This document shows, one piece after another, positions 8,209 to 64,000 of a stretch of 64,000 nucleotides of DNA. The position numbers and the translations under genes were made by a program. The notes under the pieces are model-generated. The model was not told the DNA's origin. It was given only the letters and a program-made list of their open reading frames with translations, and ran no database searches. How positions within the stretch are numbered: position 1 is the first letter of the stretch; each line of letters begins with the position of its first letter. The stretch comes from Steroidobacteraceae bacterium. GTDB taxonomy: Bacteria > Pseudomonadota > Gammaproteobacteria > Steroidobacterales > Steroidobacteraceae. The DNA is taken from the NCBI GenBank assembly GCA_025458905.1, contig JALORN010000024.1:1-64000 (forward strand), in the 5' to 3' direction.

Positions 8209-9683
8209 ATCCCGTGGGCATCGCCCCGCGGCGGCCGGCCTCGCGTGTCGTGCGCGCCGCACCCGGCGGTCCGGTCCGCGTCACGCTGCAGCGCGCGTCC
8301 GACGCGGCCGAGTGGCGCGATGCGGCCCGGCGCCTGCTCGCGCAGGACACGGACCCGGCGAGGGTCGAGTGGCAGGACGCAGCGGCCGCGCAGGCCTCGC
8401 TGTTCACCACCGGCGACCCGGCGACGGACGCCGCGCCCGTCGTCGCGGACGCCGGTGCGGATCCCTGGCCCTGGCCGGCGCCGTTCGGCGCGCTCGCTCG
8501 CCGCGTGCTCTGCCACCGCGAGCCGGGGCGCCACGCGCTGCTCTACCGCGTCGCGTGGCGGCTGCGCCGCGAACCGCGCCTGCTCGACCTCGCGGCGGAC
8601 CCCGACGTGGCGCGCCTGCACGCGCTGGATCGCGAGGTGCGGCGCGCGGCGCACAAGATGAAGGCGTTCGTGCGCTTCCGGAAGCGGTCCGACGCCGACG
8701 TCTACGTCGCGTGGTTCGACCCGGGCCATCCGCTGCTGCACGCGCTGGCGCGTTTCTTCGTCGGCCGCTTCGCGAGCCTGCGCTGGATCATCGTCACGCC
8801 GGACGCGAGCGCGAGCTGGGACGGCGAGCGCCTCGCGTTCGGCCCGGGCGCGCCGCGGCCCGCAGCTCCCGCCGCCGATCCTTGCGAGGACCTGTGGCGC
8901 ACCTACTACGCGAGCATCTTCAATCCCGCCCGCCTGAAGCTGCGTGCGATGCGGCGCGAGATGCCGCGCCGCTACTGGCGCGACCTGCCGGAAGCGGTGC
9001 TGATCCCGCAGCTCGCCGCGGACGCGACGCGGCGCACGGCCGCGATGCTCGAGGCCGATGCGACCCTCGGGGTGCGCGCGGCGGCGGCGCGCTGCGGGAC
9101 GCTCGACGCGCTCGCCGCGGCCGTGCAGGCCTGCCGTGCCTGCCCTGTCGGCTGCCGCGGCACGCGCGCGGTCGCGGGCGAAGGCCCGAGCGGCGCACGC
9201 CTGATGCTGGTCGGCGAGCAGCCGGGGGACGCCGAGGAGCACGCGGGACGACCGTTCGTGGGGCCCGCGGGCGCGGTGCTGCAGCAGGCGCTGGACGCGG
9301 CCGGGGTGCGGCGCGACGACGCCTACCTCACCAACGCCGTGAAGCACTTCGGGTTCCAGCAGCGGCAGGGACGGCGGCTGCACCGCAGCCCGGACCGCCG
9401 CACGATCGAGCATTGCCGCTGGTGGCTGCTGCGCGAGCGCGAGCTGGTCGAGCCGGTGGCGGTGGTCGCGCTCGGTCGCACGGCCCTCGCGGCCCTGCTC
9501 GGGCCGGATGTGGCGCGCGAGGCCGCGGGCTCGCGCGCGCCGGTGACCACCCACGAGACGAGCGGCGGCCGCGTGATCGCGACGCGCCACCCGGCGCACG
9601 TGCTGCGGGCCGGGGATGCCGCGGCGCGCGCCGAGTCGTACGCTGCGATCGTCGCCGCGCTGCGCACCGCGGCCGGACGCTGA
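8205..9683 (+). CDS. DUF4130 - UdgX-like uracil-DNA glycosylase fusion
   Basis: A 492-residue two-domain protein. Residues about 20-290 are the DUF4130 (TIGR03915-like) domain always linked to the preceding radical SAM family. Residues about 310-490 are a UDG-superfamily domain of UdgX type, with GEQPG at 337-341, an upstream C-x2-C (ACRACPVGC) and a further Cys in IEHC for an FeS cluster. His393 lies in GRRLH, matching the KRRIH-type loop whose His forms a covalent bond with uracil-derived DNA in characterised UdgX. The start is a GTG overlapping the upstream TGA. The gene ends one base short of the convergent kinase gene. Covalent trapping activity is inferred from the motif. Confidence 0.9.
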   Translation: MNPVGIAPRRPASRVVRAAPGGPVRVTLQRASDAAEWRDAARRLLAQDTDPARVEWQDAAAAQASLFTTGDPATDAAPVVADAGADPWPWPAPFGALARRVLCHREPGRHALLYRVAWRLRREPRLLDLAADPDVARLHALDREVRRAAHKMKAFVRFRKRSDADVYVAWFDPGHPLLHALARFFVGRFASLRWIIVTPDASASWDGERLAFGPGAPRPAAPAADPCEDLWRTYYASIFNPARLKLRAMRREMPRRYWRDLPEAVLIPQLAADATRRTAAMLEADATLGVRAAAARCGTLDALAAAVQACRACPVGCRGTRAVAGEGPSGARLMLVGEQPGDAEEHAGRPFVGPAGAVLQQALDAAGVRRDDAYLTNAVKHFGFQQRQGRRLHRSPDRRTIEHCRWWLLRERELVEPVAVVALGRTALAALLGPDVAREAAGSRAPVTTHETSGGRVIATRHPAHVLRAGDAAARAESYAAIVAALRTAAGR

Positions 9684-9684
9684 G

Positions 9685-12027
9685 TCAGCCGCCGACCGCG
9701 GCGGCCGCGGCCGGGCCGCCCGGCAGCCCGCGCAGGATCGCCTCAATCAGCTCCTCCGGATCGACGGGCTTGGTCAGGTGCTCGTCGATGCCTGCGTCGC
9801 GGCTGCGTGCCCGGTCGACCTCCTGGCCCCAGCCGGTCACGGCGATCAGGCGCATGTCGCGACCCCAGGTCTCGGCGCGCAGGCGGCGGGCGACGTCGTG
9901 GCCGTTCATCAGCGGCAGGCCGAGGTCGAGCAGCGCGACGTCGGGGCGCATCAACTCGGCGATCTCGACGGCGGTGCGGCCGTCGTAGGCGACGCGGGTG
10001 TCGAAGCCCGCGAGCCGCAGCATCTGGGCGAGCGAATCGGCGGCGTCGACGTTGTCGTCGACCACCAGCAGCCGCCTGGCGCGGGCGCCGAGCGTGGCGA
10101 TGCGCTCCGGCCCGGCGAGCGGGGCGACGACGGCCTGGGGTTGCGCGACGGCGCGCGGCAGGCGCAGGACGAACTCGCTGCCGTGGCCGCGCCCGCCGCT
10201 GGTGGCCGAGAGGCTGCCGCCATGCAGCGCCGCGAGCTGCCGTGCCAGCGACAGCCCGATGCCGAGGCCGCCGGTCGGGCCGCTGCTGCGCTCGCCCTGC
10301 ACGAAGGGGTCGAAGATCCGTGGCAGCAGCTCCGGCGGGATGCCGATGCCGTCGTCGCGCACGCGCACCACGACTTCCTCGGTGCCGTCGCTGCCCCGCT
10401 CGAGACCCGCGCGCACGGTGATGCGGCCGCCGGCGGGCGTGAAGCGCACCGCATTGCTCAGCAGGTTGCCGATCACCTGTACCAGGCGGGTGGAGTCGCC
10501 GTCGACGGTCAATGGCGCGGCCGGCAGGTGCACGTCGATGCCGTGCCCGGCAGCCTCGGCGAGTGGCTGGGCGGCCTCGACGGCCGATTCGACCAGGGGC
10601 CGCAGGTCGAGCACGCTGCGGCGCAGCTCGAGCGCGCCACGCGTGACGCGCGACACGTCGAGCAGGTCGTCGAGCAGGCGCGACATGTGCGCGAGCTGCC
10701 GGTCGATCATCCGCCGCGCGTCGGCGAGCAGCGGCGCCGGGGTGTTGGGCCGGAACACGTAGCTGGCGTAGCGGATCGGCGCGAGCGGGTTGCGCAGCTC
10801 GTGCGCGAGCGTCGCGATGAACTCGTCCTTGCGGCGGCTCGCCTCGCGCAGCTCCTCCTCGAGCGCGCGGCGGTGGGTGACGTCGTTGACGACGGCCACC
10901 CAGCCCTCGACCGTGCCGTCGCGCGCGACCACCGGCGTGTAGGCAGCGTGGATCCAGCGCGGGCCGATCGTCCTGAAGTTCACGGACTCCTCGAACTCGA
11001 ACGACTCGCCGGCCAGCGCACGCTCGAGATGCGGCTTCAGGCGCGCGAAGCCGCCCTCGCCGATCACCTCGACGATCGGCACGCCGCGCAACTCGTCGAT
11101 GCCGCGACCGACCCAGGCGAGGTAGGCGCGGTTCGCCCACACGTAGCGATGCTGGCGATCGCCGCGCACGACGCCCGTGGTCATCAGGCCGGTGACCAGC
11201 TCGAGCTCTTCGCGCGCCCGGGCGTGCGCCCGCTCGGCGGCACGGCGGCGGCTCACGTCGAGGTTGAACCCGGCCCAGGACTCGATCGAGCCGTCCGCGG
11301 CCCGCAGCGCGACGCCGCGGCTCCAGATGGTGCGCACCGAACCGTCGGCGCCGGCGGCGTCGAACTCCCAGTCGAAATCCTCGCCGGTGCGGCAGCAACG
11401 CTCCCAGCGGGCCCTGGCCTCGGCGATCCGCTCGGGTGGCTCGACGAGGTTCGAGTGCCAGTCGCCGCCGGTCCACTGCTCGAAGGTACGGCCGAGGAAG
11501 TTCAGCAGCCGCGGACTCACGAAGGTGACCCGGCCGGTCGCATCGCCGCTCCACATGCCGAAGTCGAAGGCCTCGCCGACGGTGCGGTAGCGCCGCTCGC
11601 TGCTCGCGAGCGCCTCGCGGGTCGCGGTCTGCTCGGCGAGCGAGCGCCGCAGCGAGGCCTCGCGCTGGTGCACGCGGCGCACCAGCAGGACGATGCCGGC
11701 GCAGATGGCGACGAAGAACACGAGTTCGACGGCGTCCTTGCCGCCGGCGGCGAGCAGGGTGCCGCGCGGCTCGACGAACATCCAGTTGCCACCGAGGAAG
11801 CCGAGCACGGCGACGGCGACCGCCGGGACGACGCCGAGGAACCAGCCGACGACCCCCACCGCGAGGTAGATGGTGCCGAACGGGTAGCGCAACCCGAGCA
11901 CGGGATCGAGCGCGAGGCGCAGCACGAGCGCAGCGGCGAGCAGCGTTCCGGCGAGTGCCCAGGCCTGCCAGGACCCCCGCGGGGTCGTGAGATTCACTGG
12001 ATCGTTCCCCGTCGATGCGCGCGACAC
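9685..12027 (-). CDS. hybrid sensor histidine kinase/response regulator (DUF4118, PAS-PAS, HisKA, HATPase, REC)
   Basis: A 780-residue membrane sensor. The N-terminal transmembrane segments (about 20-115) resemble the DUF4118 module of KdpD-like kinases. Two PAS domains (about 145-265 and 275-385) precede the phospho-acceptor His409 in ATLAHELRNPLAPI. The HATPase N and G boxes follow (NLLSNAVRF, DDGIGIP, GLGIGLSLA), then a C-terminal receiver with Asp701 in LLDLGLPLMNG. No separate output regulator is adjacent, so the phosphate presumably passes to a distant partner. The GTG at 12027 has a gaagg upstream; a second GTG at 11997 with ggggaa is an equally plausible start. Confidence 0.92.
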   Translation of the reverse strand: MSRASTGNDPVNLTTPRGSWQAWALAGTLLAAALVLRLALDPVLGLRYPFGTIYLAVGVVGWFLGVVPAVAVAVLGFLGGNWMFVEPRGTLLAAGGKDAVELVFFVAICAGIVLLVRRVHQREASLRRSLAEQTATREALASSERRYRTVGEAFDFGMWSGDATGRVTFVSPRLLNFLGRTFEQWTGGDWHSNLVEPPERIAEARARWERCCRTGEDFDWEFDAAGADGSVRTIWSRGVALRAADGSIESWAGFNLDVSRRRAAERAHARAREELELVTGLMTTGVVRGDRQHRYVWANRAYLAWVGRGIDELRGVPIVEVIGEGGFARLKPHLERALAGESFEFEESVNFRTIGPRWIHAAYTPVVARDGTVEGWVAVVNDVTHRRALEEELREASRRKDEFIATLAHELRNPLAPIRYASYVFRPNTPAPLLADARRMIDRQLAHMSRLLDDLLDVSRVTRGALELRRSVLDLRPLVESAVEAAQPLAEAAGHGIDVHLPAAPLTVDGDSTRLVQVIGNLLSNAVRFTPAGGRITVRAGLERGSDGTEEVVVRVRDDGIGIPPELLPRIFDPFVQGERSSGPTGGLGIGLSLARQLAALHGGSLSATSGGRGHGSEFVLRLPRAVAQPQAVVAPLAGPERIATLGARARRLLVVDDNVDAADSLAQMLRLAGFDTRVAYDGRTAVEIAELMRPDVALLDLGLPLMNGHDVARRLRAETWGRDMRLIAVTGWGQEVDRARSRDAGIDEHLTKPVDPEELIEAILRGLPGGPAAAAAVGG

Positions 12028-12096
12028 GCTCGCGCCTTCGTGTCCCGCACTGCCCGGGCCCGGGGCGATGATCGCAGAGCACGCGGGCCCGGCTCT

Positions 12097-12112
12097 GTAG
12101 GCATCCGCCTAC
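12097..12112. promoter_or_regulatory. 16-bp inverted repeat in the histidine kinase/ada divergent region
   Basis: GTAGGC-ATCC-GCCTAC is a perfect 6-bp-arm inverted repeat in the 178-bp region between the divergent kinase and ada genes. It could be an operator or a small hairpin in the leader of either gene. Nothing else recognisable was found in 12028-12205. Confidence 0.3.
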
Positions 12113-12205
12113 TCGCGCGGCAGAATTCGACAGCAAGAAGCGGATGGCGGCCGCCGTGGCGCGGACCGACGATGTCGTTGCGCTCCGTCACCCGCGAGCA
12201 GGACC

Positions 12206-13396
12206 ATGGCAAATCGACGCAGCACCCCGGACCGGCAGCCGGCCCCCAAGGGCGCGGCCCGCCAGACGCTGGAGGACCCACGCTGGGCTGCGGTGCTGGC
12301 GCGCGACGCCAGCGCCGACGGCCGCTTCGTGTATTCAGTGCGCACGACCGGTGTGTATTGCCGCCCGTCCTGCGGCTCGCGACGGGCGCGGCCCGAGAAC
12401 GTGCGCTTCCACGTGGATGCGGCCGCGGCCGAGCTCGCGGGGTTTCGCGCCTGCAGGCGCTGCGAGCCGGACCGGCCGCCTGCGTCGCGACGACAGGCGG
12501 GCCTGGTGGCGCGCGCCTGCCGGGCCATCGAGGCGGCCGAGGCGCCGCCCTCGCTCGGGTCGCTGGCGCAGGCCGCGGGGCTCAGCGCGTACCACTTCCA
12601 CCGCGTGTTCAAGGCGGTCACCGGCCTGACGCCACGGGGCTACGCGCTCGCGCAGCGCAGCCGGCGACTGCGCGAGCGGCTCGACCCGGTGCGCGGTGCA
12701 CGCACGGTGACCGACGCGCTGTTCGACGCGGGGTTCAATTCCGGCGCGCGCGCCTACGCGCAGGCGCCGGGGCAGCTCGGCATGACGCCCTCGGCGTACC
12801 GGCGCGGCGGCGCCGACGTGCGGATCCGCTTCGCGGTCGGCCAGTGCTCGCTGGGGTCCGTGCTGGTGGCGCAGAGCGGGCGTGGCCTGTGCGCAATACT
12901 GCTCGGCGACGAGCCCGAGGCGCTGGTCCGCGACCTGGAGGATCGCTTCCCGCACGCGGAGCTGGTGGGCGGTGACGCGGAATTCGAGCGCGTGGTCGCG
13001 GCCGTGGTGGGGTTCGTGGAGGCGCCGCGACTCGGCCTCGAGCTGCCGCTCGACATCCGTGGCACCGCGTTCCAGCAGCGCGTGTGGCAGGCGCTGCGCG
13101 CGCTGCCACCCGGCCAGACGACCAGCTACGCGGAGCTCGCCCGCCGCATCGGTGCGCCCTCCTCGACCCGGGCCGTCGCCGCCGCCTGCGCGGCCAATGC
13201 GCTCGCGGTGGCGATCCCCTGCCATCGGGTGGTGCGCACCGACGGCAGCCTGTCCGGCTACCGCTGGGGTGTGGAGCGCAAGCGGCGCCTCCTGCAGCGC
13301 GAGTCGACCGCAGAAGGCGAAGAAGGGGACGGATTGGAAAAAGGGGACGGATTTATTTTCCGGGATCGGGTCCATGGACCCGATCCCGGAAAATAA
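12206..13396 (+). CDS. ada: Ada: methylphosphotriester/O6-methylguanine-DNA methyltransferase and transcriptional activator
   Basis: Direct reversal of DNA alkylation combined with activation of the adaptive response. The N-terminal zinc module has Cys52, Cys56, Cys83 and Cys86 with the same spacing as E. coli Ada (C38/42/69/72); Cys52 would accept the phosphotriester methyl. An AraC-type HTH region spans about 95-190. The C-terminal O6-methylguanine domain has the PCHRVV active site at Cys339. The normal domain ends near residue 366 (KRRLLQRE). The last 30 residues are encoded by the downstream dispersed repeat, which also supplies the TAA stop. The start has an agcagga leader. Confidence 0.93.
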   Translation: MANRRSTPDRQPAPKGAARQTLEDPRWAAVLARDASADGRFVYSVRTTGVYCRPSCGSRRARPENVRFHVDAAAAELAGFRACRRCEPDRPPASRRQAGLVARACRAIEAAEAPPSLGSLAQAAGLSAYHFHRVFKAVTGLTPRGYALAQRSRRLRERLDPVRGARTVTDALFDAGFNSGARAYAQAPGQLGMTPSAYRRGGADVRIRFAVGQCSLGSVLVAQSGRGLCAILLGDEPEALVRDLEDRFPHAELVGGDAEFERVVAAVVGFVEAPRLGLELPLDIRGTAFQQRVWQALRALPPGQTTSYAELARRIGAPSSTRAVAAACAANALAVAIPCHRVVRTDGSLSGYRWGVERKRRLLQRESTAEGEEGDGLEKGDGFIFRDRVHGPDPGK

Positions 13397-46604: not shown

Positions 46605-47369
46605 TCAGGCGAAGGCCTTGGCGATGATCGGCCGGCTGGCGCGGACGATGCGCTCATGGGTCGACTGGATGCGTGGAGTGGGCCCGCCCACCACCAGCGC
46701 GAAGTGTCCACCGGCGGCCTCGACCGGCAGCGGGAAGGCGACCGCGGCCACGCCGGGGATCATCAGGTCGAAGCTGGCGAGATGGCCGCGCCGGCGCGCC
46801 GACTGGGCGTCGCGCAGCGCGGCCGCCGCGTCGAACGGGTGGCGACGCTCGCGGTGCTGCACGTCCTCGAGGATGCCGCGCACCTCGTCGTCGTCGAAGG
46901 TCGCGAGCACCGCGCGGCCCGCGCCGCTGCAGGGCAGCGGGCCGCCGCGGCCGACGTGCATCAGGATGCTACCGGCGAGCGTGCCGGGCACGAAGTGCTC
47001 GATCTGCAGGAAGTGGCCATTGCGGCCGCAGACGCTGGTGGTCTCGCCGGTGGCGCGCGCGACGTCGGTGGCGGTGGCCTGCAGCCGGCGCATCGGCAGG
47101 TCGAGCTCGCCCAGCCAGCGCCCGAGGTCGGCGAGCCGGCCGCTCGGGAAGTAAGTACGGCCGCGCGGGTCGTAGGACAGGTAGCCGAGGGCGGCGAGCT
47201 CGCGCGCCAGCACCAGGGCGCTCGCCTGCGGCAGCGACAGCGCGGACTCGATCTCGGTGGCGGTCAGCGGCCGGCGCTCGCGCCGGAACAGCTCGAGCAG
47301 GGCGAACGCCCGGCCGACCGACTTGCTGATGACCGTGGACACGACCGGCCCCCCTGGCTTCTGCGGCAT
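46605..47369 (-). CDS. IclR-family transcriptional regulator
   Basis: A 254-residue regulator. The N-terminal winged HTH (SVGRAFALLELFRRERRPLTATEIESALSLPQASALVLAREL) is followed by the IclR effector domain (VCGRNGHFLQIEHF, LPCSGAGRAVLATF, VAAVAFPLPVEAAGGHFALVVGG). It is divergent from the transporter gene at 47436 and probably controls the transporter-esterase unit. The start is uncertain: ATG 47369 lacks a Shine-Dalgarno sequence, GTG 47342 has an AGGGGGG six bases upstream, and GTG 47411 is also in frame. Confidence 0.88.
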   Translation of the reverse strand: MPQKPGGPVVSTVISKSVGRAFALLELFRRERRPLTATEIESALSLPQASALVLARELAALGYLSYDPRGRTYFPSGRLADLGRWLGELDLPMRRLQATATDVARATGETTSVCGRNGHFLQIEHFVPGTLAGSILMHVGRGGPLPCSGAGRAVLATFDDDEVRGILEDVQHRERRHPFDAAAALRDAQSARRRGHLASFDLMIPGVAAVAFPLPVEAAGGHFALVVGGPTPRIQSTHERIVRASRPIIAKAFA

Positions 47370-47370
47370 G

Positions 47371-47388
47371 GGGCGCTTGCAAGCGCCC
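47371..47388. promoter_or_regulatory. 18-bp perfect palindrome between the iclR-type gene and the transporter gene
   Basis: GGGCGCTTGCAAGCGCCC is a perfect palindrome in the short divergent region, directly upstream of the regulator's ATG and about 50 bp upstream of the transporter start. The position fits an operator serving both genes. A gataat-like element lies beside it on the minus strand (about 47400-47410). Confidence 0.5.
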
Positions 47389-47435
47389 ATCGCCGGCGTA
47401 AGATTATCCACGGTCCCTTCCGCATCAGCAAACTA

Positions 47436-53531: not shown

Positions 53532-53578
53532 AAAAAATAAATCCGTCCCCTTTTCAAAAACAAATCCGTCCCCTTTTC
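53532..53578. repeat. dispersed repeat, locus 5 (two direct units at the mcr stop)
   Basis: Two direct units, about 53532-53555 and 53556-53578, read TGAAAAGGGGACGGATTT on the minus strand. The mcr stop TGA (minus strand, 53577-53579) is the first three bases of the terminal unit, so the repeat begins exactly at the end of mcr. The second unit has a C in the AT-rich part (caaat). Confidence 0.85.
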
Positions 53579-56500
53579 AGACCGTGATGGCGAGGCCGCG
53601 GTAGATGCGGGCGCGGTAGCGGCTTTCCTGGGCCTCGGCGAGCGGCGCGGCGGCGAGCAGCACGGCGTGGGCGAAGCGGCCGTACTCCTCCGCCTGCTCG
53701 GCGGCATCGCGTGGCTCCTCGCTGCGCATGCGGCGTGTCAGGTTCACCTGGTTCACCGGCACGTAGGTATGGAGGCGCTCGTTCTCGACGCCGAGCGTCG
53801 CGGTCAGCGCGTGCAGCGTGGTCTTCACGAAGTTGGCGAGCGCGAACTGGGCGATCGTGCCGCCGACCGGCACGTCGGGCGAGCAGAGGATCAGCCGCGT
53901 GCCCTTGAACAGCGAGACCTTGCGCGCCACGCGGAAGTGGTGCGTCAGGTTGGCCTCGACCAGGGCCGCGAACCCGGCCGCGTTCAGTCGCTCCTCGCCC
54001 TCGACGCCGAACAGTCCCGTCGGCAGGGGCGCGAACGGCGTGCAGATCACGGCCGCCGGCTTGCCGGTCGACTGGAAGGCGCGGTCGAGGCCCGCCTCGA
54101 GGTCGTCGCCGACTGCGAGATAGGTGACGCGGTCGTGGCCGAGCGCGCGGCCGAGCGCCGCGCGGATCGCCTCGCCGCGCCGCTGCGTGCGCGTCAGCAT
54201 CATCACGCTGCCGACGTGGCCTTCCGCGAGGAACAGGCGCGCTGCCGCGGCCACCGGCTCGGCCATGTGCTCGCCGACGAACCAGATGGTCTCGCCCTCC
54301 ATGCGTCGCACGCGCTCGGGCTTGGCGCGGCCGAACAGCTCGCGCTCGGTGATCGTGCGCTCCTGCTGCAGGCCGCCGGAGGGCTCGAAGGTCTCGCCGG
54401 AGATCGCGCGGTCGGCCATGAAGAACACGGTCGCGAGCGCGACGTCGGTCTCGGTCGGCATGCGCCGCAGGTGCAGCATGCCGAGCACGCCGGTGCGGAT
54501 CTTGCCAGCCTCGGCGCGCACCGCCTCCGGGTCGACGAACGGCGGCGGCGGCTCCGGGAGCGAGCCCACCCAGGACTGGGCACGCTGCACGTCGAGCGGG
54601 TCGACGAGGATGCAGCCGTTGCGCAGCCGGTGCACCAGCCGGTCGGCGATCGCGTGGGTCATCAGGAAGCGCAGCGACGAGTGCGTCGGCGCGGCGCGAT
54701 TGCCACCCTCGGCGGCGACGCGCATCGCGAACGCCCGCAGCGGCTCGGGCGCGCTGCCCGAATGCGCCAGCAGGCCGACGTCGTTCGGTGACAGGGCGTT
54801 GAACACCGCATCGAGCGAGACCCCCTGCTCCAGCGCCTGCAGCACCGCGCCGTGCACGCCGTTGAGGCGCCGGTTCTCGATGATCAGCCGGGCACGACGG
54901 TCGAACAGGCCCGCCTTGCCCTCCTTGCCCTTGAGGCGCTGGCCGTCGACCGGGCCGGGCGCGATCGCGTTGATCTGGATCTCCGGGCCGACGAAGCGCG
55001 CGAGGTTCTCGACCAGCGCGCGCTGGCCGGCCTTCGAGACCGCGTAGTCGGCGCGGTTCGGGTAGGGCACGGCGATGTACTTCTCGCCGCCGAAGTAGGA
55101 GCTGACGTTGAGGATGTAGCCGCTGCCCTGCGCCTTCATCAGCGGCACGACCTTCTCGATCAGCGAGTAGTTCGAGTTCAGGTTCGACTGCAGCGTCGCG
55201 CGCCAGGCCTCCGGGTCGAGGTCGACCACCATCTGCTCGGCGCCCGCGACGCCGGCGTTGTTGACGAGGTAGTCGATGCGCCCGAACGCCCGCAGCGTCG
55301 CCTCGAGCGCGAGCTTCATCGCGGCCTCGCTGCCGACGTCGACGTCCGCCAGCACCTGCACGCGGTCCCCGGGCTGGTAATAGCCGATGTCCTCGAGCTC
55401 GCGGACGATGGAGGCGCGCATCTCGAGCAGCGGCTCGGCGCGCCGCGCAGTGATCATCACCTTCGCGCCGGCGATCGCCAGCAGCCGCGCGAGCTGGCCG
55501 CCGATGCCCGCCGAGCCGCCGGTGATCAGCACGCACTTGCCGAGGTGCAGGCCGGTCAGCGCCTCGGTCCAGCCGAGCACCGAGCGCTGCGCGCCCGTGA
55601 CCTCGGCGATGTTGACCGGCGCGTACAGGCAGATCTGCGGGATGCGCCGCTTCATGAACAGCAGCCGCGCCGCCTGCCCGGCGCTGAACGGCAGCGACTC
55701 CGCGTCCGGGCTGCTGAAGCGCAGGATCTGGTTCGACCACTCCACGGCGGCACGGTCGCCGCCGTTGACCTGCATCTCGCTCTCGTCGCGCCAGACGCGG
55801 ATCAGCTCCTCGATCGCCGCGCGCAGGATGTCGGCGTAGGCGTTGCCGGCGCCATCGTCGCCGTTCGACATGAACACCGCGCGCGGCGCCGCGCCGCGCG
55901 GCGCCGTCTCCTTCCAGAAGCGCGTCAGCTCGCGGGCCACCGAGATCGCGCCGGCGAGCTCGGTCGTCAGGAAGTTGTCGACGTCGGTGTCGCCGACCTC
56001 GGTCAGCGCCCCGCGGAAGCGGTACGCGCCGTAGGCCGGCAGCACGATGGCGCCGTGCAGCGCGCCGTGCTTGTCGGACGCGCGCGCCTGCGAGCCCGAG
56101 AGCACCGCGTGCAGCGTGCCGGCGCGGCTGCGGTCGAACAGCACCGGCTCGATGCGCCGGTCGCGGCCGCCGCGGCCATCGGCGTCCGGGTCGTCGACGT
56201 CGTCGCGCGCCAGCGCCGCGCGCGCCGCCTGCACGCCCTCCTCGGAACCGAGCCCCAGCAGCACGTGCGCGCCGACGCCCGCCTGCACGCGCGCGATCGC
56301 GAGCGCGTCGGCGATCTGGTCGCCGGCGGCGACCAGCACGGTCGTGCCGTCGCCGTCGAGGGTGCGCAGGTCCGGCCGCGACAGCAGCGTCGAGCGCGAC
56401 TCCTGCCAGACGTTCATGCCGTTGGTCACCTCGAAGCCGTGTGCCGAGAAGGCACGCGACTCGTCGGAGCCGAGGAACACGATCGCGTTGGCGACGTCGT

Positions 56501-57308
56501 CGATCGACGGGAACACCGGCTGCAGGCCGGCCGGGCCCTCGCCCCGCGACAGCGCCATCGTGGCGAGGAAGTCCTGCGCGGTGGTGCCGGGCGGCACCTT
56601 CTTCAGGCCGTCCATCGCCGCGAACACGTTGTGGATGCGCTCGCTCTCGATCGGGCCCGGATAGACCACGTTGACGCGGATGCCGCGCGGCCCGAGCTGC
56701 AGCGCGAGGTGGCGCGAGAAGGTGTTCAGCGCGGCCTTCGGCACGACGTAGGGCGCGCGGCCGTAGTAGCGGGTGCGCGAGAAGATCGTCGAGACGTTGA
56801 CGATGCTGGAGCCCGGCTGCAGGTGCGGCGACGCCGCGCGGCACATGTTCCAGGTCAGGCCGAACAGGTTGGAGATCGCGTCGCGCACGGTCTCGGTGTC
56901 GTTCGAACCCGCGGCCCGCAGCGCCTCGACCTCCTCGCGCGTCAGCGGCACGTTGCCGAGCGGCTGCTTGGGCCCGGTGGAGCCGGCGTTGTTGACCAGG
57001 ACGTCGAGCCGCCCGAGCTCCTGCACCACGGTCTCGACGCCGAGCCGCGCCTGGCCGGGATCGGAGGCGTCGAACGGCAGGATGAGCGCCGCTCGCGAGC
57101 CCCAGCCGAGGGTCTGCTCGATGCGCGCCAGCGTCGCCTCGAGCTTGGCGCGCTTGCGGCCGACCATCACGACGCGCGCACCTTCCTCCAGGTAGCGGCG
57201 CACGATGGTCTCGCCGAAATTGCCGCCGGCGCCGGTGATCAGGGCGACCTTCCCGGCCAGCCGACCGGTGCGCCCCTGTGCCGCCAGACCGGGATCCGTG
57301 GTCGTCAT
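53577..57308 (-). CDS. mcr: bifunctional malonyl-CoA reductase (Chloroflexus type)
   Basis: Reduces malonyl-CoA by two NADPH-dependent steps to 3-hydroxypropionate. The 1243-residue protein closely matches the Chloroflexus enzyme (about 1220 residues) in domain order. The N-terminal SDR has GAGGNFG at 26-32, Ser173 and Tyr187-x3-Lys191; the C-terminal SDR has GGSAGIGGQ near 590 and Tyr755-x3-Lys759. SDR-like extended domains follow each, and the terminus RIYRGLAITV is the family's. The ATG at 57308 has an ideal AAAGGAGG five bases upstream; an ATG at 57350 is in frame without a site. No internal stop or frameshift is seen. Confidence 0.92.
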   Translation of the reverse strand: MTTTDPGLAAQGRTGRLAGKVALITGAGGNFGETIVRRYLEEGARVVMVGRKRAKLEATLARIEQTLGWGSRAALILPFDASDPGQARLGVETVVQELGRLDVLVNNAGSTGPKQPLGNVPLTREEVEALRAAGSNDTETVRDAISNLFGLTWNMCRAASPHLQPGSSIVNVSTIFSRTRYYGRAPYVVPKAALNTFSRHLALQLGPRGIRVNVVYPGPIESERIHNVFAAMDGLKKVPPGTTAQDFLATMALSRGEGPAGLQPVFPSIDDVANAIVFLGSDESRAFSAHGFEVTNGMNVWQESRSTLLSRPDLRTLDGDGTTVLVAAGDQIADALAIARVQAGVGAHVLLGLGSEEGVQAARAALARDDVDDPDADGRGGRDRRIEPVLFDRSRAGTLHAVLSGSQARASDKHGALHGAIVLPAYGAYRFRGALTEVGDTDVDNFLTTELAGAISVARELTRFWKETAPRGAAPRAVFMSNGDDGAGNAYADILRAAIEELIRVWRDESEMQVNGGDRAAVEWSNQILRFSSPDAESLPFSAGQAARLLFMKRRIPQICLYAPVNIAEVTGAQRSVLGWTEALTGLHLGKCVLITGGSAGIGGQLARLLAIAGAKVMITARRAEPLLEMRASIVRELEDIGYYQPGDRVQVLADVDVGSEAAMKLALEATLRAFGRIDYLVNNAGVAGAEQMVVDLDPEAWRATLQSNLNSNYSLIEKVVPLMKAQGSGYILNVSSYFGGEKYIAVPYPNRADYAVSKAGQRALVENLARFVGPEIQINAIAPGPVDGQRLKGKEGKAGLFDRRARLIIENRRLNGVHGAVLQALEQGVSLDAVFNALSPNDVGLLAHSGSAPEPLRAFAMRVAAEGGNRAAPTHSSLRFLMTHAIADRLVHRLRNGCILVDPLDVQRAQSWVGSLPEPPPPFVDPEAVRAEAGKIRTGVLGMLHLRRMPTETDVALATVFFMADRAISGETFEPSGGLQQERTITERELFGRAKPERVRRMEGETIWFVGEHMAEPVAAAARLFLAEGHVGSVMMLTRTQRRGEAIRAALGRALGHDRVTYLAVGDDLEAGLDRAFQSTGKPAAVICTPFAPLPTGLFGVEGEERLNAAGFAALVEANLTHHFRVARKVSLFKGTRLILCSPDVPVGGTIAQFALANFVKTTLHALTATLGVENERLHTYVPVNQVNLTRRMRSEEPRDAAEQAEEYGRFAHAVLLAAAPLAEAQESRYRARIYRGLAITV

Positions 57309-57597
57309 CGGCCCTCCTTTCGCGCCCGCCGCGGCGCCCTCGGCGTGCATCCCGCCCGGACGCCGCCCGCTCCATGACCTGCCTCAGGATGTCTCACACA
57401 TCGGTCGCCCGAAGCAACTGTGGCTGGCGACACCGCAGCCGCGGCTACGCCGGGACCGCGGCCGCGGCCCGGTGCCGAAGCCCCGCGACCGAACCCGGCG
57501 ACCGGCCGGACACGGACCGGCTGCGCGGCGCAGGCAGCCGGTGGCATCCTTCACCGCGGCGCGCCGAACCCGGTGCCACCATTGGAGGACGGCAGAG
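57309..57597. promoter_or_regulatory. divergent intergenic region between mcr and the aldo/keto reductase
   Basis: A 289-bp region carrying the leaders of both divergent genes. Shine-Dalgarno sequences are clear on both sides (57312-57319 for mcr, GGAGG at 57584-57588 for the reductase). I see no convincing promoter hexamers or operator, apart from a loose GTCGCC/GGCGAC inverted pair near 57400-57430. No gene is supported here. Confidence 0.35.
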
Positions 57598-58659
57598 GTG
57601 GACCGAAGGACCATGGGCGACGGAGCACGCGTCCCGCATCGCGAGGCCTCGCCGACGACCCTGCCGCTACGCCTGCCGCGCCTCGCGCTCGGCTGCATGG
57701 GCTTCGGCTCGAGCGCCTGGCGACCCTGGGTGCTCGACGAGCCGGCGGCGCTGGAAGTGCTGGCCCGCGCGCTCGAGGCCGGCGTCACGTTCTTCGACAC
57801 CGCCAACGTCTACTCGACCGGCCGCAGCGAGCTCGTGCTCGGCCGGATGCTGCGCGCCGCGCAGGCGCGGGAGCGGGTGCTGGTGGCGACCAAGCTGTTC
57901 TTCCCGGTCGGCGCCGGCGAGGCCGGGCTGTCGCGCCGCAACGTGCTCGAGTCCTGCGACGCCTCGCTCCGGCGGCTCGGCCTCGAGCGCATCGACCTGC
58001 TGCAGATCCACTGCTACGACGAGGCGACGCCGGTCGAGGAGACGCTGCAGGCACTCGACGAGCTGGTGCGCGCCGGCAAGGTCGCACACCTCGGCGCATC
58101 CAACGTGCGCGCCTGGCAGCTCGCCAAGCTGAACTTCACCGCCCGCGCGCAGGGCTGGGCACCGTTCGAGACCGTGCAGGTCCACTACAACCTGCTGTAC
58201 CGCGAGGAAGAGCGCGAGCTGCTGCCGTTCTGCGTCGACCAGGGCATCGCGGTGCTGCCCTGGAGCCCGCTCGCCCGCGGGCGACTCGCGCGCCCGACCG
58301 CGCCGCTCGCGACCAGCCGCGCCGCCGCCGACGACGTCGCCGACACTCTCTATGGCCCGCCGACCGACCCGATCCTCGGCGCGCTCGCTGCGCTCTCGAC
58401 CGAGCTCGGCGTCGCCCCTGCACAGCTCGCCCTCGCGTGGACGTGGACGCGCCCGGCGGTCGCGGCGCCGGTGGTCGGCGCGACCTCGCTGCGCCACGTG
58501 GAGGAAGCCCTGGCCGCGTCGCGACTGGACCTGCCCGCCGGCGTCTTCGAGCCGCTGGAGCGCGCCTACACGCCGCGGCCGCTGGCGGACCTGCCGAAGA
58601 CGGCACGCAACCAGACGGTGCTGCAGCCGATGGAGCCGTCCCCCGGCGCCCCGGCCTAG
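57598..58659 (+). CDS. aldo/keto reductase divergent from mcr
   Basis: A 353-residue cytoplasmic NADP-dependent reductase. LALGCMGFGSSAWRPW, TFFDTANVYSTGRSELVLGRML (catalytic Asp and Tyr), VLVATKLFFPVG (Lys) and IDLLQIHCYD (His) define the family. It resembles YajO-like enzymes. The GTG at 57598 with GGAGG nine bases upstream is preferred; the ATG at 57613 has its purine tract too close. Its position suggests, but does not prove, a role with the 3-hydroxypropionate genes, for example reducing malonate semialdehyde. The stop overlaps the convergent gene by four bases. Confidence 0.88.
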   Translation: MDRRTMGDGARVPHREASPTTLPLRLPRLALGCMGFGSSAWRPWVLDEPAALEVLARALEAGVTFFDTANVYSTGRSELVLGRMLRAAQARERVLVATKLFFPVGAGEAGLSRRNVLESCDASLRRLGLERIDLLQIHCYDEATPVEETLQALDELVRAGKVAHLGASNVRAWQLAKLNFTARAQGWAPFETVQVHYNLLYREEERELLPFCVDQGIAVLPWSPLARGRLARPTAPLATSRAAADDVADTLYGPPTDPILGALAALSTELGVAPAQLALAWTWTRPAVAAPVVGATSLRHVEEALAASRLDLPAGVFEPLERAYTPRPLADLPKTARNQTVLQPMEPSPGAPA

Positions 58660-59906
58660 AGCTGCGTGCCGAGCGCCACCGAGTTGGTCGCGGTGGCGGC
58701 CGGGCTGTCGACCAGCGGGTCGCCGGTCGGCACGCCGAGCCGCAGCTTGCCGGTCGCCGACATCGAGTGGTCCCAGTTCAGTTCGACGTGCATCGAGACC
58801 GTGCGGCAGTCGCGGTGCAGGCGCTGCACCGGGTTGCCGGTCGCGTAGCCGGTGATGCCCATCATCGTCGAGAGCGTGTCGGTCGCCTCGGCGCAGAGCG
58901 TCGAGGCGAGGGTGATCAGCCGGCGCATCCGCAGCAGGTCCTCGCCGCGGATCTCCTCGCGCGCCGCGCCGTGGCGATGCAGGCGAGCGAGCACGTCGGC
59001 GAATACCAGCTCCGCCGCGTCGAGCCGCGCGCAGGCGGCGCCGATGCGCACCTGCACCGGCACCTGGGTCGCGATCGACTCGCCGAGGATGCGGCCGGTG
59101 CGGGCGCGGGTCTGCTCGAGATAGGAGGCCAGCGCGCCGCGCGCGGTGCCGAGCAGCGGCCCGAAGAACCAGCTCTTCTGGTAGGCCGGCGTGCGCACGC
59201 AGTGCACGTAGCTCTCGGCGATCGCCGCGCCCGGCGGCGTCATGCTGGTGAACTCCTGCATCGACAGCACGCGGCGCGCCGGCACCTGCAGGCCGTCGAC
59301 GCTGATGTCGTGGCTGCCGGTGCCGCGCAGTCCCTCGGCGTTCCAGGTGTCGTGGATCGAGTACTCGCCCGGCAGCAGGAGGATGAAGTGCGAGATCGGC
59401 CCCTGGCCGCCCTCGCGCGCCACGACCATCGCGCCGCCGGCGACGTTGACGCCGCTGACGAAGCTCCAGCGACCCTGCAGGCGCCAGGCCTCGCCCTCGC
59501 GATGCAGCGCGCCGCCGCCCGCCGAGCCGGTGGCGAGCACCGGGTCAGGGCTGCGCGCGAAGAACTCCTCCTGGCCCTCGGGCGCGAAGCGGCCGACGTA
59601 CATGATGTGCGAGAACACCAGCGAAGTGAGCCAGCCGGTGGCGCCGCACTCGCGCGACAGCCGCTCGCTCGCGACGTAGTGCGCGCCCCAGTCCATGCCG
59701 TAGCCGCCGAAGCGGCGCGGCATGTAGAGCCGGTGCAGCCCCGCGGCGCGCAGCGCCGCGACCACTTCCGGCACCGGGTCGCGGCGCTGCTCGGCCGCCT
59801 CGGCGTTGGCGCGGACGAGCGGCGCGAGGCGCTCGGCGGCGTCAGCGAGCTCGCCCGGCGTGGGCGCGGTGGACGGCGTCGCCGCGGTGACGGTGTGGAC
59901 GGGCAT
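58656..59906 (-). CDS. acyl-CoA-dehydrogenase-fold flavin-dependent protein, HsaA/HpaB-like monooxygenase type
   Basis: A 416-residue protein with the acyl-CoA dehydrogenase fold of group D two-component monooxygenases (HsaA-like). Visible blocks: RRFGGYGMDWGAHYVASERLSRECGATGWL, then WRLQGRWSFVSGVNVAGGAMVVA, and a C-terminal LHRDCRTVSMHVELNWDHSM typical of the type 2 C-terminal domain. GAGGAAG precedes the ATG at 59906. It follows pcs by 35 bp on the same strand, so it is probably co-transcribed. A reductase partner is not in the window. It could instead be a genuine dehydrogenase. Confidence 0.82.
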   Translation of the reverse strand: MPVHTVTAATPSTAPTPGELADAAERLAPLVRANAEAAEQRRDPVPEVVAALRAAGLHRLYMPRRFGGYGMDWGAHYVASERLSRECGATGWLTSLVFSHIMYVGRFAPEGQEEFFARSPDPVLATGSAGGGALHREGEAWRLQGRWSFVSGVNVAGGAMVVAREGGQGPISHFILLLPGEYSIHDTWNAEGLRGTGSHDISVDGLQVPARRVLSMQEFTSMTPPGAAIAESYVHCVRTPAYQKSWFFGPLLGTARGALASYLEQTRARTGRILGESIATQVPVQVRIGAACARLDAAELVFADVLARLHRHGAAREEIRGEDLLRMRRLITLASTLCAEATDTLSTMMGITGYATGNPVQRLHRDCRTVSMHVELNWDHSMSATGKLRLGVPTGDPLVDSPAATATNSVALGTQL

Positions 59907-59941
59907 GGTACTTCCTCGAGACCGGTGAGCAGGCGACGGCG

Positions 59942-62338
59942 TCAGTCGCGCCGGGCGGCAGCCCACTCCTGGAACAGCTCGTCGCGCGAGCGGATGCCGG
60001 GCCGCGGCAGCGCGTGGTTGACGACGTAGTTGGCGCCGGCGTGCGTGTTGTCCCACATCGCCTGGTGCGCCTGCGGCAGTTCGTCCCAGGGCACCACGGT
60101 CGGCGGCGTCACCTCGAGCTGGCCGGCGGCGATCATGTCGTTCATCCGCGCGACCTCGTAGGCATTGCAGAGGTGCGTGCCGGCGATGCTCGCGCGTGGC
60201 ATCAGGATGCGGCGCTGGCGCATCCAGACCTGCGGCGCGTAGAACGTGTAGCGGCGCCCCGCCATGTCTTCGCAATAGACCACGCGCCCGGTGAACGGCT
60301 TGGCCAGCGAGGTGCTGGCGGCGAGCGCGTCGTGGCCGGCGCGCTCGACGACGAGGTCGGGGTAGCCGCGCGGGTTGTCGGCGGACCTCAGGTAGCGGCC
60401 GATCGCGCCGCCGAAGGGCTTCATCGTGCGCTCCTGGTAGAGCCGCACGGCCTCCTTGAACTTCGCGGTCTCGCGCTTGGCGTCCGGCATCGGCGGCAGC
60501 GCCGTCGGCCAGTCGAAGTCGGCGCCTTCCTTGCGGCGGATCTCCTCGAGCGACACCACGCCCTTGACGGCGTCGCCGAAGCCGAGCGACTGCACGAACT
60601 CGCGCTGCGCGTCGGTCGCGGTGGCGACGACCAGCCGCCCACCCAGCGCGCGCACCGCCTCGATCGCCTCGAGACCCACGGCGTCGGCGAGCGCCGGACC
60701 GGCGACGCCGTAGTACAGCAGCACCGCCTCGCCGGCGCGCAGCCGCGCGCGCTGCAGCATCTCCTCGGGGCTCGTCGCACCGCGCTTGCCGACGAACGAG
60801 AACCCGTAGCCGCTGGTCGCGCCGTAGAACGTCAGCGTGCCGCCGTCGGCGAGCAGCTGGAACGAGCGCGGGAAGGATTCCTGGCCGGCATGCGAGACCG
60901 CGTAGTCGGCGAGCCGGCCACCGGTCTGCGCACGCATCGCCGCGCACAGCGGCTCGCCGGCCGCCTCCCAGGCCGCGATCGCCTCGGGCGCGGACGGCAC
61001 CGGGGTGAACGCGGCTGCCCAGCGCGGGTCCTTGCGGTTGATCGCGCCGGCGGCGCCGAGGGTCTTCACGTAGGCCGCGCGCTCGTCGTTCGACACCAGG
61101 CCGACCGCCGCGAGACCGTTCTTCGCGGCGCTCTTCAGCGCCTCCATGCCGGTGCCGGTCGCGGCGCCCTCGACGAAGATCGTGCGGCCCGACTCGATCT
61201 TCAGCGTGGTGAACAATGCACGCGCGATCGTGCCGAGGTTCAGCACGTAGGAACCCGCCGCCTCCAGCGTCAGGTCGCTCGGCACCGGGTGCAGCTGCGG
61301 GCCCTGCACCAGCAGGAACTGCTGGTGGCTGCCGGTGTCCGTCTCGTAGCCCTGGATCGAGAAGCCGGCGTACATCGGGTCGCGCGCCGCGAGCGGCGAC
61401 AGCAGCTCACTCTGGCCGCTGTAGATCGTGACCAGATCCCCGGTCTTCAGCCGCGCCTCGCGCTTGACCTCGCTGCCGAGCGCGACCACGAGGCCGACGC
61501 CGCCGGAGCCGGTGACCTGGTAGTCGAGATCGTGGTTCTCGAACGGCGAGACCGGGATGCCGGTGATGGCCCAGATGTCGTTGAAGTTCACCTCGGAGGC
61601 GAGCACGTAGACCACGGCCTCGTTCGGCCCGGGCTCGGGCACCGGCAGCAGGATCTCCCTCTCGCAGTCCTTCGGCAGGCCGTGCGCCAACGCGCCGGAG
61701 ACCGGGTCCTTGATGACCGCATGGCCGTACTGCCAGGCCGGCAGCGGCGTGAAGCCGGGGTAGAACGGGCTGCCGAGCGGCAGCAGCTCGCCGCGCGCGA
61801 TCAGGTCGCCGGCCTGGTCGTGCGAAGGCAGGACGTTGCGGCGCGTCGGCAGCGGCGCGCTCTGCTTGTCGATGAAGGCGCGGATGCCGGCCTTGCCACC
61901 CTGCGGGTCGACGACCGCCTCGGCGAACAGGCGCGCCTCGTGCTCGAGGCCCGCGTCGATGCCGCGCGTCCAGCCGGTGCGCAGCGCGTCGAGGATGCGG
62001 CCCGCCGTGGCGGCGCGGCCGACGAGGCGCGCCTGCTCGACCAGTCGCCGCACCTCGGGATCCGTGAGCACGGGTTCGAAGGCGCTGCGACCCGGCTGGC
62101 GCCAGGCCTCGTTGGCCTGCCGCCGCGCGCGATAGGCGCGGGCGACGAGCCCGTCGCCGCCCGGCGCGCACACGAACTCGGCGGCGAGGCCCACGGCCTC
62201 GCTGACCACGTCGCGCCGGTCCGAGATCGCGTCGATCAGCCCGTCGGCCCGCGCCTCGTCGGCGGACAGCGTGCGGCCGCCGAGCACGATCTCAATCGCG
62301 CGCACCAGCGGCGCCGGGTGGCCCGCGGCCTCGAGCAG
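59942..62338 (-). CDS. pcs: propionyl-CoA synthase, 3' part: end of enoyl-CoA hydratase domain plus enoyl-CoA reductase domain (frame-shifted)
   Basis: This frame picks up the enoyl-CoA hydratase domain at LLEAAGHPAPLVRAIEIVLGG and continues into the zinc-free MDR-type enoyl-CoA reductase, with VVYVLASEVNFNDIWAITGIPVSPF and the NADP-binding IFVEGAATGTGMEALKSAAKNG. Together with the upstream part it corresponds to the trifunctional propionyl-CoA synthase that turns 3-hydroxypropionate into propionyl-CoA. Two extra bases separate the frames at 62339-62340. The only in-frame start near the junction is a GTG at 62305 without a Shine-Dalgarno sequence, so independent translation is doubtful. Confidence 0.85.
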   Translation of the reverse strand: MLEAAGHPAPLVRAIEIVLGGRTLSADEARADGLIDAISDRRDVVSEAVGLAAEFVCAPGGDGLVARAYRARRQANEAWRQPGRSAFEPVLTDPEVRRLVEQARLVGRAATAGRILDALRTGWTRGIDAGLEHEARLFAEAVVDPQGGKAGIRAFIDKQSAPLPTRRNVLPSHDQAGDLIARGELLPLGSPFYPGFTPLPAWQYGHAVIKDPVSGALAHGLPKDCEREILLPVPEPGPNEAVVYVLASEVNFNDIWAITGIPVSPFENHDLDYQVTGSGGVGLVVALGSEVKREARLKTGDLVTIYSGQSELLSPLAARDPMYAGFSIQGYETDTGSHQQFLLVQGPQLHPVPSDLTLEAAGSYVLNLGTIARALFTTLKIESGRTIFVEGAATGTGMEALKSAAKNGLAAVGLVSNDERAAYVKTLGAAGAINRKDPRWAAAFTPVPSAPEAIAAWEAAGEPLCAAMRAQTGGRLADYAVSHAGQESFPRSFQLLADGGTLTFYGATSGYGFSFVGKRGATSPEEMLQRARLRAGEAVLLYYGVAGPALADAVGLEAIEAVRALGGRLVVATATDAQREFVQSLGFGDAVKGVVSLEEIRRKEGADFDWPTALPPMPDAKRETAKFKEAVRLYQERTMKPFGGAIGRYLRSADNPRGYPDLVVERAGHDALAASTSLAKPFTGRVVYCEDMAGRRYTFYAPQVWMRQRRILMPRASIAGTHLCNAYEVARMNDMIAAGQLEVTPPTVVPWDELPQAHQAMWDNTHAGANYVVNHALPRPGIRSRDELFQEWAAARRD

Positions 62339-64000
62339 CCGTAGCCCGGCAGCAGGTTCAGCCGCACCTCCGGCTGCCCGAACGTGGCGCCGGGCTCGGC
62401 GACCCGCACGTGGCAGGCCATCGCGAACTCCATGCCGCCGCCGAGCGCGACGCCGTTGATCGCCGCCAGCGCCGGCTTGCCCATCGACTCGATCTTGCGG
62501 AACGCGAGGTGCGCGTTGTTCGGCAGCGGCAGCGCTTCCTCGAGCGTGTGCACGTCCTCGAGCAGCTGGCGCACGTCGGCGCCGGCGACGAACGAGGCGG
62601 TGCCCTGGCCGGTGAACACCACCGCCTTGACGTCGTCGCGGCGCGCGACGTGGTCGACCACGATGTTCAGCTCGTCGAGTGCACGCTCGTTCAGCGCGTT
62701 GACCGGCGGGTTGGTGACGGTGACGAGAGCGATGCGCGAGACCGGCGCGCCGGCGGCGCCCGGCAGCGCGTGGTACTGGATGCGGAAGTAGCGATAGTCC
62801 TCGAACAGCTGCTGCTCGTCGGCGACCTTCTGCCGCGACAGCCAGTCGGCGATCGCCGCGCGCAGCTCGGGGATCGACTCGGGGTTGCGCAGCGTCGAGG
62901 TGTCGCCGACGTCGCCGTCCTCGACCAGCGCGCGAACCATGCGGCGCATGTACTTGCCGCTGCGCGTCTCCGGGAACTGCGAGACCTCGATGAAGTCCTC
63001 CGGCACGGCCACCGCGCCCTTCTCCTGGCGCACGATCTCGATCAGCCGGCGGCGATCGTCGGCGGTGAGCTTGCGGCCCGGCGCGGGCTTCACGAAGGCG
63101 AGCGGCGTCAGGCCCTTCTGCGCATGCGGCGCGCCGACCACGATCACGTTGCCCACCGGCGAATCCGGGTTGACCTGCTTGTCGCGCAGGATCGCGCCCT
63201 CGATCTCCTCGGTGCCGAGCCGGTGGCCGGAGACGTTGATGACGTCGTCCGAGCGGCCGTGCAGCGAGAAGCCGCCGTCGGCGTACTTCACCGCGAAGTC
63301 GCCCTGGGTGTAGGCGAACGTGTCTTTCCAGCGCGTCCAGTAGGTCTTCGCGTAGCGCTCGAAATCGCCCTTCCAGGCGGGGCTGACGCGCGTGCCCTCG
63401 ATGCGGAAGTGCTCGGCGTCGCCCCAGATGGTGCGGCAGAGGTAGGGATAGGGCGCGGCGACCACGATCTCGCCCTTCTCGCCGATCTCCGCGACGCGCG
63501 CCGCGACCCGGCCGGTGGCCGCATCCGGCTCGCTGTCGGGCACCCAGACGTCGCCCATCACCCAGGGCAGCGGATAGGTGTGTGCGTCGGCGCGCAGCGG
63601 GAAGTCGCCGTTGCCGAAGAAATGCGTCCAGACGATGCCGCCGTGCTCGGTGGCCCAGTAGGAGTTGATGTACCAGGGCGTGACGAGGTCCATGCCGAAC
63701 TGCTGCACGCTCGGTGAGGTCGGCTCGGCGCAGAACGTGGCCACGCGCAGCGAGCCGAGGCCATAGGCCTGCACGTCGGCGACGTTCTGCGGGTCGGTCA
63801 TCACCGTCTTCAGGAAGGTGACGCCCGCCTTGAAGATCTGCACGCCGAAGCGCTCGATGATGCTCGCGAAGCGCCCCGCGCTCGGGAACACCGGCGCGCC
63901 CTCGGTGATCACGGTGGTGACGCGCGTCGCGAGCGCGGCCGCGATCATGTAGCTCTGGCCGGTGATCCAGCCCGGGTCGGCGACGACATAGATCACGTCG
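62236..64000 (-). CDS. pcs: propionyl-CoA synthase, 5' part: acyl-CoA synthetase C-terminal region plus most of the enoyl-CoA hydratase domain (frame-shifted, cut by window end)
   Basis: Open from the window edge. The acyl-CoA synthetase part shows TFLKTVMTDPQNV, SYWATEHGGIVWTHF, GRSDDVINVSGHRLGTEEIE and the catalytic-lysine region PETRSGKYMRRMV. The enoyl-CoA hydratase part follows, with FVAGADVRQLLE (oxyanion hole) and ALGGGMEFAMACH plus FGQPEVRLNLLPGYG (two catalytic Glu). After PGYG the family expects GTQRLPR-like sequence, but the frame runs out into unrelated residues (last 35) and stops at 62236; the correct frame resumes at 62338. It was probably one gene with the 3' part. Confidence 0.85.
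   Translation of the reverse strand, partial: DVIYVVADPGWITGQSYMIAAALATRVTTVITEGAPVFPSAGRFASIIERFGVQIFKAGVTFLKTVMTDPQNVADVQAYGLGSLRVATFCAEPTSPSVQQFGMDLVTPWYINSYWATEHGGIVWTHFFGNGDFPLRADAHTYPLPWVMGDVWVPDSEPDAATGRVAARVAEIGEKGEIVVAAPYPYLCRTIWGDAEHFRIEGTRVSPAWKGDFERYAKTYWTRWKDTFAYTQGDFAVKYADGGFSLHGRSDDVINVSGHRLGTEEIEGAILRDKQVNPDSPVGNVIVVGAPHAQKGLTPLAFVKPAPGRKLTADDRRRLIEIVRQEKGAVAVPEDFIEVSQFPETRSGKYMRRMVRALVEDGDVGDTSTLRNPESIPELRAAIADWLSRQKVADEQQLFEDYRYFRIQYHALPGAAGAPVSRIALVTVTNPPVNALNERALDELNIVVDHVARRDDVKAVVFTGQGTASFVAGADVRQLLEDVHTLEEALPLPNNAHLAFRKIESMGKPALAAINGVALGGGMEFAMACHVRVAEPGATFGQPEVRLNLLPGYGCSRPRATRRRWCARLRSCSAAARCPPTRRGPTG

Follow-up and report, generated by a model that had tools for sequence, protein, structure and literature searches.

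The locus examined here raises the question of how much of the 3-hydroxypropionate bi-cycle it encodes, and what such a pathway would do in a gammaproteobacterium. The window is a stretch of 64,000 nucleotides from a Steroidobacteraceae bacterium (positions 1 to 64,000 of contig JALORN010000024.1, assembly GCA_025458905.1), and towards its end it carries mcr, predicted to encode a bifunctional malonyl-CoA reductase (Mcr), and the greater part of pcs, which corresponds to the trifunctional propionyl-CoA synthase (Pcs). We consider it probable that the locus encodes the limb of the bi-cycle from acetyl-CoA to propionyl-CoA, that further genes of the genome extend it to succinyl-CoA, and that this half of the bi-cycle serves light-assisted CO2 co-assimilation, not autotrophy. 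A first-pass annotation of the window had proposed that the locus serves CO2 co-assimilation or anaplerosis, and our analysis supports this as its likely function.

The mcr gene is complete in the window, with an ATG start preceded by an AGGAGG site; the longest open reading frame (ORF) sharing its stop has an in-frame start at 57350 and encodes 1257 aa. In the numbering of this longer form, Mcr aligned over residues 27/29-1257 with the solved full-length chains 8hi4 (1160 bits) and 8hjw (1128 bits), and both YxxxK sites are present (Tyr201/Lys205 and Tyr769/Lys773, which are 187/191 and 755/759 from the ATG of the 1243-aa form), so the first-pass annotation had read the protein correctly. Because the match to solved Mcr runs from end to end, a chance run of short-chain dehydrogenase/reductase (SDR) domains was ruled out. 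We also compared 14 residues that PMC10470521 names in the Roseiflexus enzyme, 12 of which were mutated there, the other two being Tyr743 and Lys807; Lys919 and Arg1164 were left out of the comparison. Thirteen are retained, comprising (in 8hi4 numbering) 5/5 in SDR1 (Thr165, Tyr172, Arg175, Tyr178 and Lys182) and 8/8 in SDR3 and the extra-domain (Ser731, Tyr743, Arg746, Tyr749, Lys753, Arg785, Leu795 and Arg799). The exception is the CoA contact Lys807, which is Arg in the window Mcr. The closest solved relatives include the Porphyrobacter enzyme 6k8s. Among the 5000 best plasmid records, none covered 80% of the query, and those listed were generic SDRs. The product is a malonyl-CoA reductase, an activity predicted from its sequence.

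All three parts of Pcs (synthetase, hydratase and reductase) were detected on the same strand, with 2633 bases between the pcs stop and the mcr start. The first-pass annotation was right about the domains and their distance from Mcr, but it had missed a 22-base deletion, so that the three parts do not lie in one open frame in this assembly. The gene also leaves the window and runs nearly to the end of the window contig (C85) at 65438. Set against the intact Pcs of locus L010 (1884 residues), the two parts match residues 25-1067 and 1071-1878, and the downstream ORF matched chain 6eqo (1850 residues) over residues 3-787 with 1039 bits. A second pcs, 86.2% identical in DNA to the window copy and open over 1494 codons, was found in the same bin on contig C83 (L095, 1-4485).

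The bin (G000) is 86% complete, with a listed contamination of 2.6% and a size of 4.28 Mb. Of the further genes that the first-pass annotation had suggested looking for, those for propionyl-CoA processing were found on contig C103, where methylmalonyl-CoA mutase, MeaB and a carboxyltransferase/biotin-carboxylase pair lie close together; the mutase and MeaB were above model cut-offs. Reaction-centre genes were also present (pufL and pufM, two PF00124 matches at C19:69720-71378), and the genome is predicted to belong to an anoxygenic phototroph with a type II reaction centre. A malyl-CoA lyase orthologue did not appear: no match was obtained in this 86% complete bin at E 1e-60, and the best of the weaker lyase homologues was 32% identical and citE-like. 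No RuBisCO large subunit was found in G000 either. With neither RuBisCO nor a malyl-CoA lyase orthologue found, light-assisted CO2 co-assimilation is the most likely function, and not a closed autotrophic cycle.

By the established reaction equations of the pathway, Mcr would reduce malonyl-CoA with two NADPH to 3-hydroxypropionate, which Pcs would activate with ATP, dehydrate and reduce to propionyl-CoA. The C103 carboxylase, together with methylmalonyl-CoA mutase and MeaB, would then convert propionyl-CoA to succinyl-CoA and refill the tricarboxylic acid cycle, the net conversion being that of acetyl-CoA and two bicarbonates to succinyl-CoA. The cost in ATP and reductant could be met by photosynthetic electron flow, and the route most likely also disposes of electrons in this anoxygenic phototroph. 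Gene content, functional residues, synteny, distribution and trees are what the analysis shows directly; the substrates, the flux, the coupling to light and the choice of the working pcs copy are what we infer from them. Two other accounts of acetyl-CoA assimilation were tried and rejected. The ethylmalonyl-CoA pathway found no support, as no Ccr above cut-off was detected in any of 26 genomes, G000 included. Nor is the pathway explained in G000 by a missing isocitrate lyase, since this gene is present on contig C12; 6 of the 26 genomes had no match. Chloroflexus aurantiacus is said in PMC8307300 to use the glyoxylate cycle as well.

In the genus of the window genome, mcr was detected in 21 of 24 genomes, reaction-centre genes in 20 and RuBisCO in none. 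The sporadic occurrence in some marine Proteobacteria mentioned by the first-pass annotation therefore does not hold within the genus, although Mcr is rare in a class-wide sample of 369 genomes: besides the window genome, only one Mcr was found (1/368; G240), and it is 44% identical to that of the window. Across the 217 genomes of the family (counts use the listed positives and stated totals, genomes without a match being listed in part only), 23 had mcr, 38 had reaction-centre genes and 79 had RuBisCO. Of the 23 mcr genomes, all but G189 and G199 (both 77% complete) had reaction-centre genes (21/23), and one (G165) had RuBisCO. Outside the genus, both mcr genomes fall among the 18 phototrophs of 193 genomes (Fisher p 0.008; our Fisher tests take no account of relatedness). 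Among phototrophs of the family, RuBisCO was present in 1/21 with mcr versus 9/17 without it. Thus, a phototrophic proteobacterial genus has a nearly universal 3-hydroxypropionate route and no detected RuBisCO, which raises the question of whether the half pathway takes the place of RuBisCO as a CO2-assimilating electron sink in such phototrophs. Since the route is near-universal in a genus in which RuBisCO was not found, this question is testable there, and congeners with and without the glyoxylate half (the lyase occurs in 4/24) offer a natural comparison. The enzymes are already known in kind; what is new is the host lineage, the near-universality of the pair without detected RuBisCO, its mixed history and the broken pcs.

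It should be noted that several points weigh against the assignment of the locus to a working half of the bi-cycle. Absences in G000 are weak because the bin is 86% complete. The best model for the C103 carboxylase was mmdA, below its cut-off, and we read this enzyme as propionyl-CoA carboxylase from its context; no epimerase was seen in the C103 cluster, and no search for it was made elsewhere. Acetyl-CoA carboxylase was assumed to be present as a general fatty-acid enzyme, and no search for it was made. As G000 has isocitrate lyase, the 3-hydroxypropionate route would not be its sole means of acetyl-CoA assimilation. In G205, which is 100% complete and has mcr, there was no carboxyltransferase at E 1e-30 (a search covering 15 of the 26 genomes) and only a fused-type mutase match; the downstream limb is therefore not seen in every mcr genome. 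G196 (93% complete) has reaction-centre genes and no mcr. Finally, the deletion in the window pcs, placed at about 62339 by alignment with C83 and seven relatives, lies within the hydratase domain, and the C83 copy is incomplete, as it breaks off at either end of its contig; it may be a paralogue or a contig of a related strain.

The phylogenetic data bear on whether all of these genes belong to one organism. In a tree of 26 rows (the partial Mcr of G189, G190 and G199 were left out), the window Mcr grouped with those of G140 and G165, which represent two other genera of the family (support 100/100). Its placement in one clade with its own genus was rejected by the approximately unbiased (AU) test (p 6e-65), for which four further rows were omitted: the long outgroup L101, the partial L023, and two duplicates of other rows (L013 and L017). 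The isocitrate lyase of G000, on the other hand, is 87-90% identical to those of the genus versus 68-69% to those of G140 and G165, and it was placed in the genus with full support (tree of 17 of the 20 genomes with matches). PufLM of G000 also fell outside the genus, more weakly: p was 0.0135 when G000 was constrained to its genus and 0.053 when G000, G140 and G165 were constrained to group together, in a test with 21/38 phototroph genomes in which only 5/18 inner branches were well supported. Either the photosynthesis genes were acquired from another lineage along with the pcs-mcr pair, or the bin contains contigs of a different phototroph.

Under the second alternative, C85 with the window and C19 with the reaction centre would be misbinned and the gene set would be a mixture. 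Besides the conflicting trees, this is suggested by the bin size, which exceeds that of the other listed genomes of the genus (1.4-3.6 Mb), and by the two diverged pcs copies. However, the same gene combination occurs in other genomes of the genus, and the listed contamination is low. In addition, the tetranucleotide profiles of C85 and C19 correlated with those of other G000 contigs (mean r 0.875-0.887, compared with 0.863 for G000 contigs among themselves) slightly better than with those of G140 (0.845-0.865) or G165 (0.860-0.871). This difference is small; the profiles agree with one genome, and mixing would be compatible with them too. On balance, we regard misbinning as unlikely.

With regard to the first alternative, it is conceivable, and we offer this only tentatively, that phototrophy and pcs-mcr travel jointly between genera of the family as a mobile photomixotrophy package that replaces the Calvin cycle, some congeners having the glyoxylate half in addition. 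If so, a recipient would retain its own core (isocitrate lyase and the mutase) and gain light-powered carboxylation of acetyl-CoA, congeners that also have the glyoxylate half would approach the full bi-cycle, and the genus would be a natural series for its assembly or disassembly. Two observations on Mcr in other genomes may be added. Mcr was present in two Gemmatimonadota metagenome-assembled genomes (MAGs; L018 and L023), near the Rhodocyclaceae Mcr in the tree with moderate support, and in L018 pcs is directly upstream. In G165, the Mcr match changes frame near query residue 985 (L021:12826-12838, contig of L080), and this is the second broken frame in a pcs-mcr pair, besides the window pcs.

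The state of the window pcs could also indicate that the pathway is decaying, with pcs a pseudogene, the pair split, and Mcr either left over or used for 3-hydroxypropionate/malonate semialdehyde metabolism alone. Through the 22-base deletion the hydratase part loses its GTQRLPR segment and the frame is shifted, two genes are inserted at the pcs-mcr junction, and the ratio of nonsynonymous to synonymous substitution rates (dN/dS) against C83 is somewhat higher downstream of the deletion (about 0.36) than in the upstream part (about 0.25). Nevertheless, the reading frames are otherwise open on both sides of the deletion and both halves look constrained, Mcr is intact with its functional residues retained, a second open pcs fragment is present in the bin, and an assembly error would give the same picture. 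We therefore consider decay quite improbable. Since both halves look constrained against C83, we are dealing either with a recent deletion or with an assembly error. Given the deletion, Pcs function would rest on the C83 copy, unless the deletion is an assembly error.

A complete autotrophic bi-cycle, whose second-half genes would be missing from G000 through bin incompleteness only, was evaluated with malyl-CoA lyase (the L011 lyase against 15 genomes, then the G192 lyase against 217). Orthologues were found in 4/217 genomes of the family, all within the genus (G186, G189, G190 and G192), and in each the lyase is accompanied by CoA-transferase homologues and one hydratase homologue only, where the second half of the bi-cycle would call for mesaconyl-CoA C1-C4 transferase and two hydratases. 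In G192, which has no isocitrate-lyase match, this cluster is on contig C13 (L076, about 8052-12600); one CoA-transferase scored 665 bits against 2-methylfumaryl-CoA isomerase (cut-off 725), and the hydratase frame contains a stop codon. The transferase match in G189 is in two pieces. A similar set was observed in a Rhodocyclaceae MAG (L011:3626-19184), in which mcr lies beside CoA-transferases, a lyase-family gene and a hydratase homologue; downstream is a 1796-residue fused protein with biotin carboxylase, biotin carrier and carboxyltransferase domains, and no pcs was found in the fetched stretch. These loci, and the incompleteness of G000, speak for a full cycle. Against it, the orthologue is rare in the family, was not found in G000 and is absent from more complete mcr genomes of the genus (G198, G200, G202, G203, G204 and G205, 94-100% complete). 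A complete bi-cycle in the window genome thus appears very unlikely. Because four genomes carry the lyase cluster, the genus holds both the half pathway and what could be a near-complete bi-cycle.

The arrangement of the pair was compared across 29 loci, 27 of which were readable (L058 and L059 had no upstream sequence). Besides three named records that are probably duplicates, these 27 junctions represent 24 different genomes: the other 20 of the genus that carry mcr, G140, G165, a Gemmatimonadetes MAG, and G240, which belongs to another family. In all 27, pcs and mcr share a strand, pcs is directly upstream, and the aligned ends are 16-200 bases apart, while the flanking genes vary by lineage: cytochrome-oxidase genes come after the pair in the main block of the genus, and G140 has a photolyase gene before it and a TraB-like gene after it. 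Pcs and mcr thus behave like a cassette of two genes, which in the window was split by a local insertion of two unrelated ones. The first-pass annotation had taken these two, an HsaA-like protein (best solved match 2rfq, 148 bits) and an aldo/keto reductase, for accessories of the pathway, and a route variant with them as partners is hardly credible: the HsaA-like gene does begin 35 bases past the pcs stop on the same strand, but its match is far below the curated cut-off, the aldo/keto reductase gene runs in the other direction, and the proposal was rejected on synteny because no homologue above 150 bits of either occurs at any of the 27 other junctions in the fetched loci. Coordinates are given in Table 1.

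Table 1. Features of the pcs-mcr region (window positions unless stated otherwise)
Feature	Position	Strand	Remarks
mcr, predicted bifunctional malonyl-CoA reductase, 1243 aa	53577..57308	minus	homology with 8hi4 indicates four SDR-like domains
aldo/keto reductase, about 348 aa, start uncertain	57613..58659	plus, divergent from mcr	PF00248 E 3e-68; part of local insertion
HsaA/HpaH-like acyl-CoA-dehydrogenase-fold flavin monooxygenase, 416 aa	58656..59906	minus	NF045629 197 bits (cut-off 450); part of local insertion
pcs downstream part (rest of hydratase + reductase domain), shifted frame	59942..62338	minus	
pcs deletion junction, 22 bases relative to C83 and seven relatives	62338..62339	no strand	
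pcs upstream part (acyl-CoA synthetase domain + first half of hydratase)	62339..64000, on to contig position about 65382-65436	minus	

Several marine phototrophs carry an incomplete bi-cycle, and marine phototrophic proteobacteria with Mcr provide, in the Porphyrobacter enzyme, one of the closest solved relatives noted above. The system described here shares with the bi-cycle of Chloroflexaceae and Roseiflexus the bifunctional Mcr with the same functional residues (13/14 checked), the phototrophic host, and the carboxylase and mutase steps; the three domains of the trifunctional Pcs are present as well, though in a broken frame in this assembly. It differs in that no malyl-CoA lyase orthologue was found in G000, pcs-mcr is a two-gene cassette, and isocitrate lyase is also present. 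The distant class relative G240 has the same pcs-mcr adjacency in a different lineage, with an Mcr only 44% identical to that of the window. PMC9802188 reports bi-cycle gene sets in Burkholderiales and Gemmatimonadales MAGs, which likewise have Mcr and Pcs outside Chloroflexota, and photosynthesis is predicted in the Burkholderiales cases; in contrast to G000, which has no detected lyase orthologue, these sets are reported to exceed the completeness threshold and to have the glyoxylate-salvage genes in one operon. The paper also cites Mcr and Pcs in Alpha- and Gammaproteobacteria, and its passage naming Steroidobacteraceae concerns the Calvin cycle. Two other papers state that aerobic anoxygenic phototrophs of blooms appear to use an incomplete 3-hydroxypropionate bi-cycle (PMC11089705) and that mcr was not found in a boreal lake data set (PMC6094481). 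Our literature search, with subscription journals mostly outside its reach, found no paper that deals with the pathway in this lineage, although this does not show that none exists.

Elsewhere in the window, positions 46605-47411 encode a regulator of the IclR type that weakly resembles the PcaR and BhcR models.

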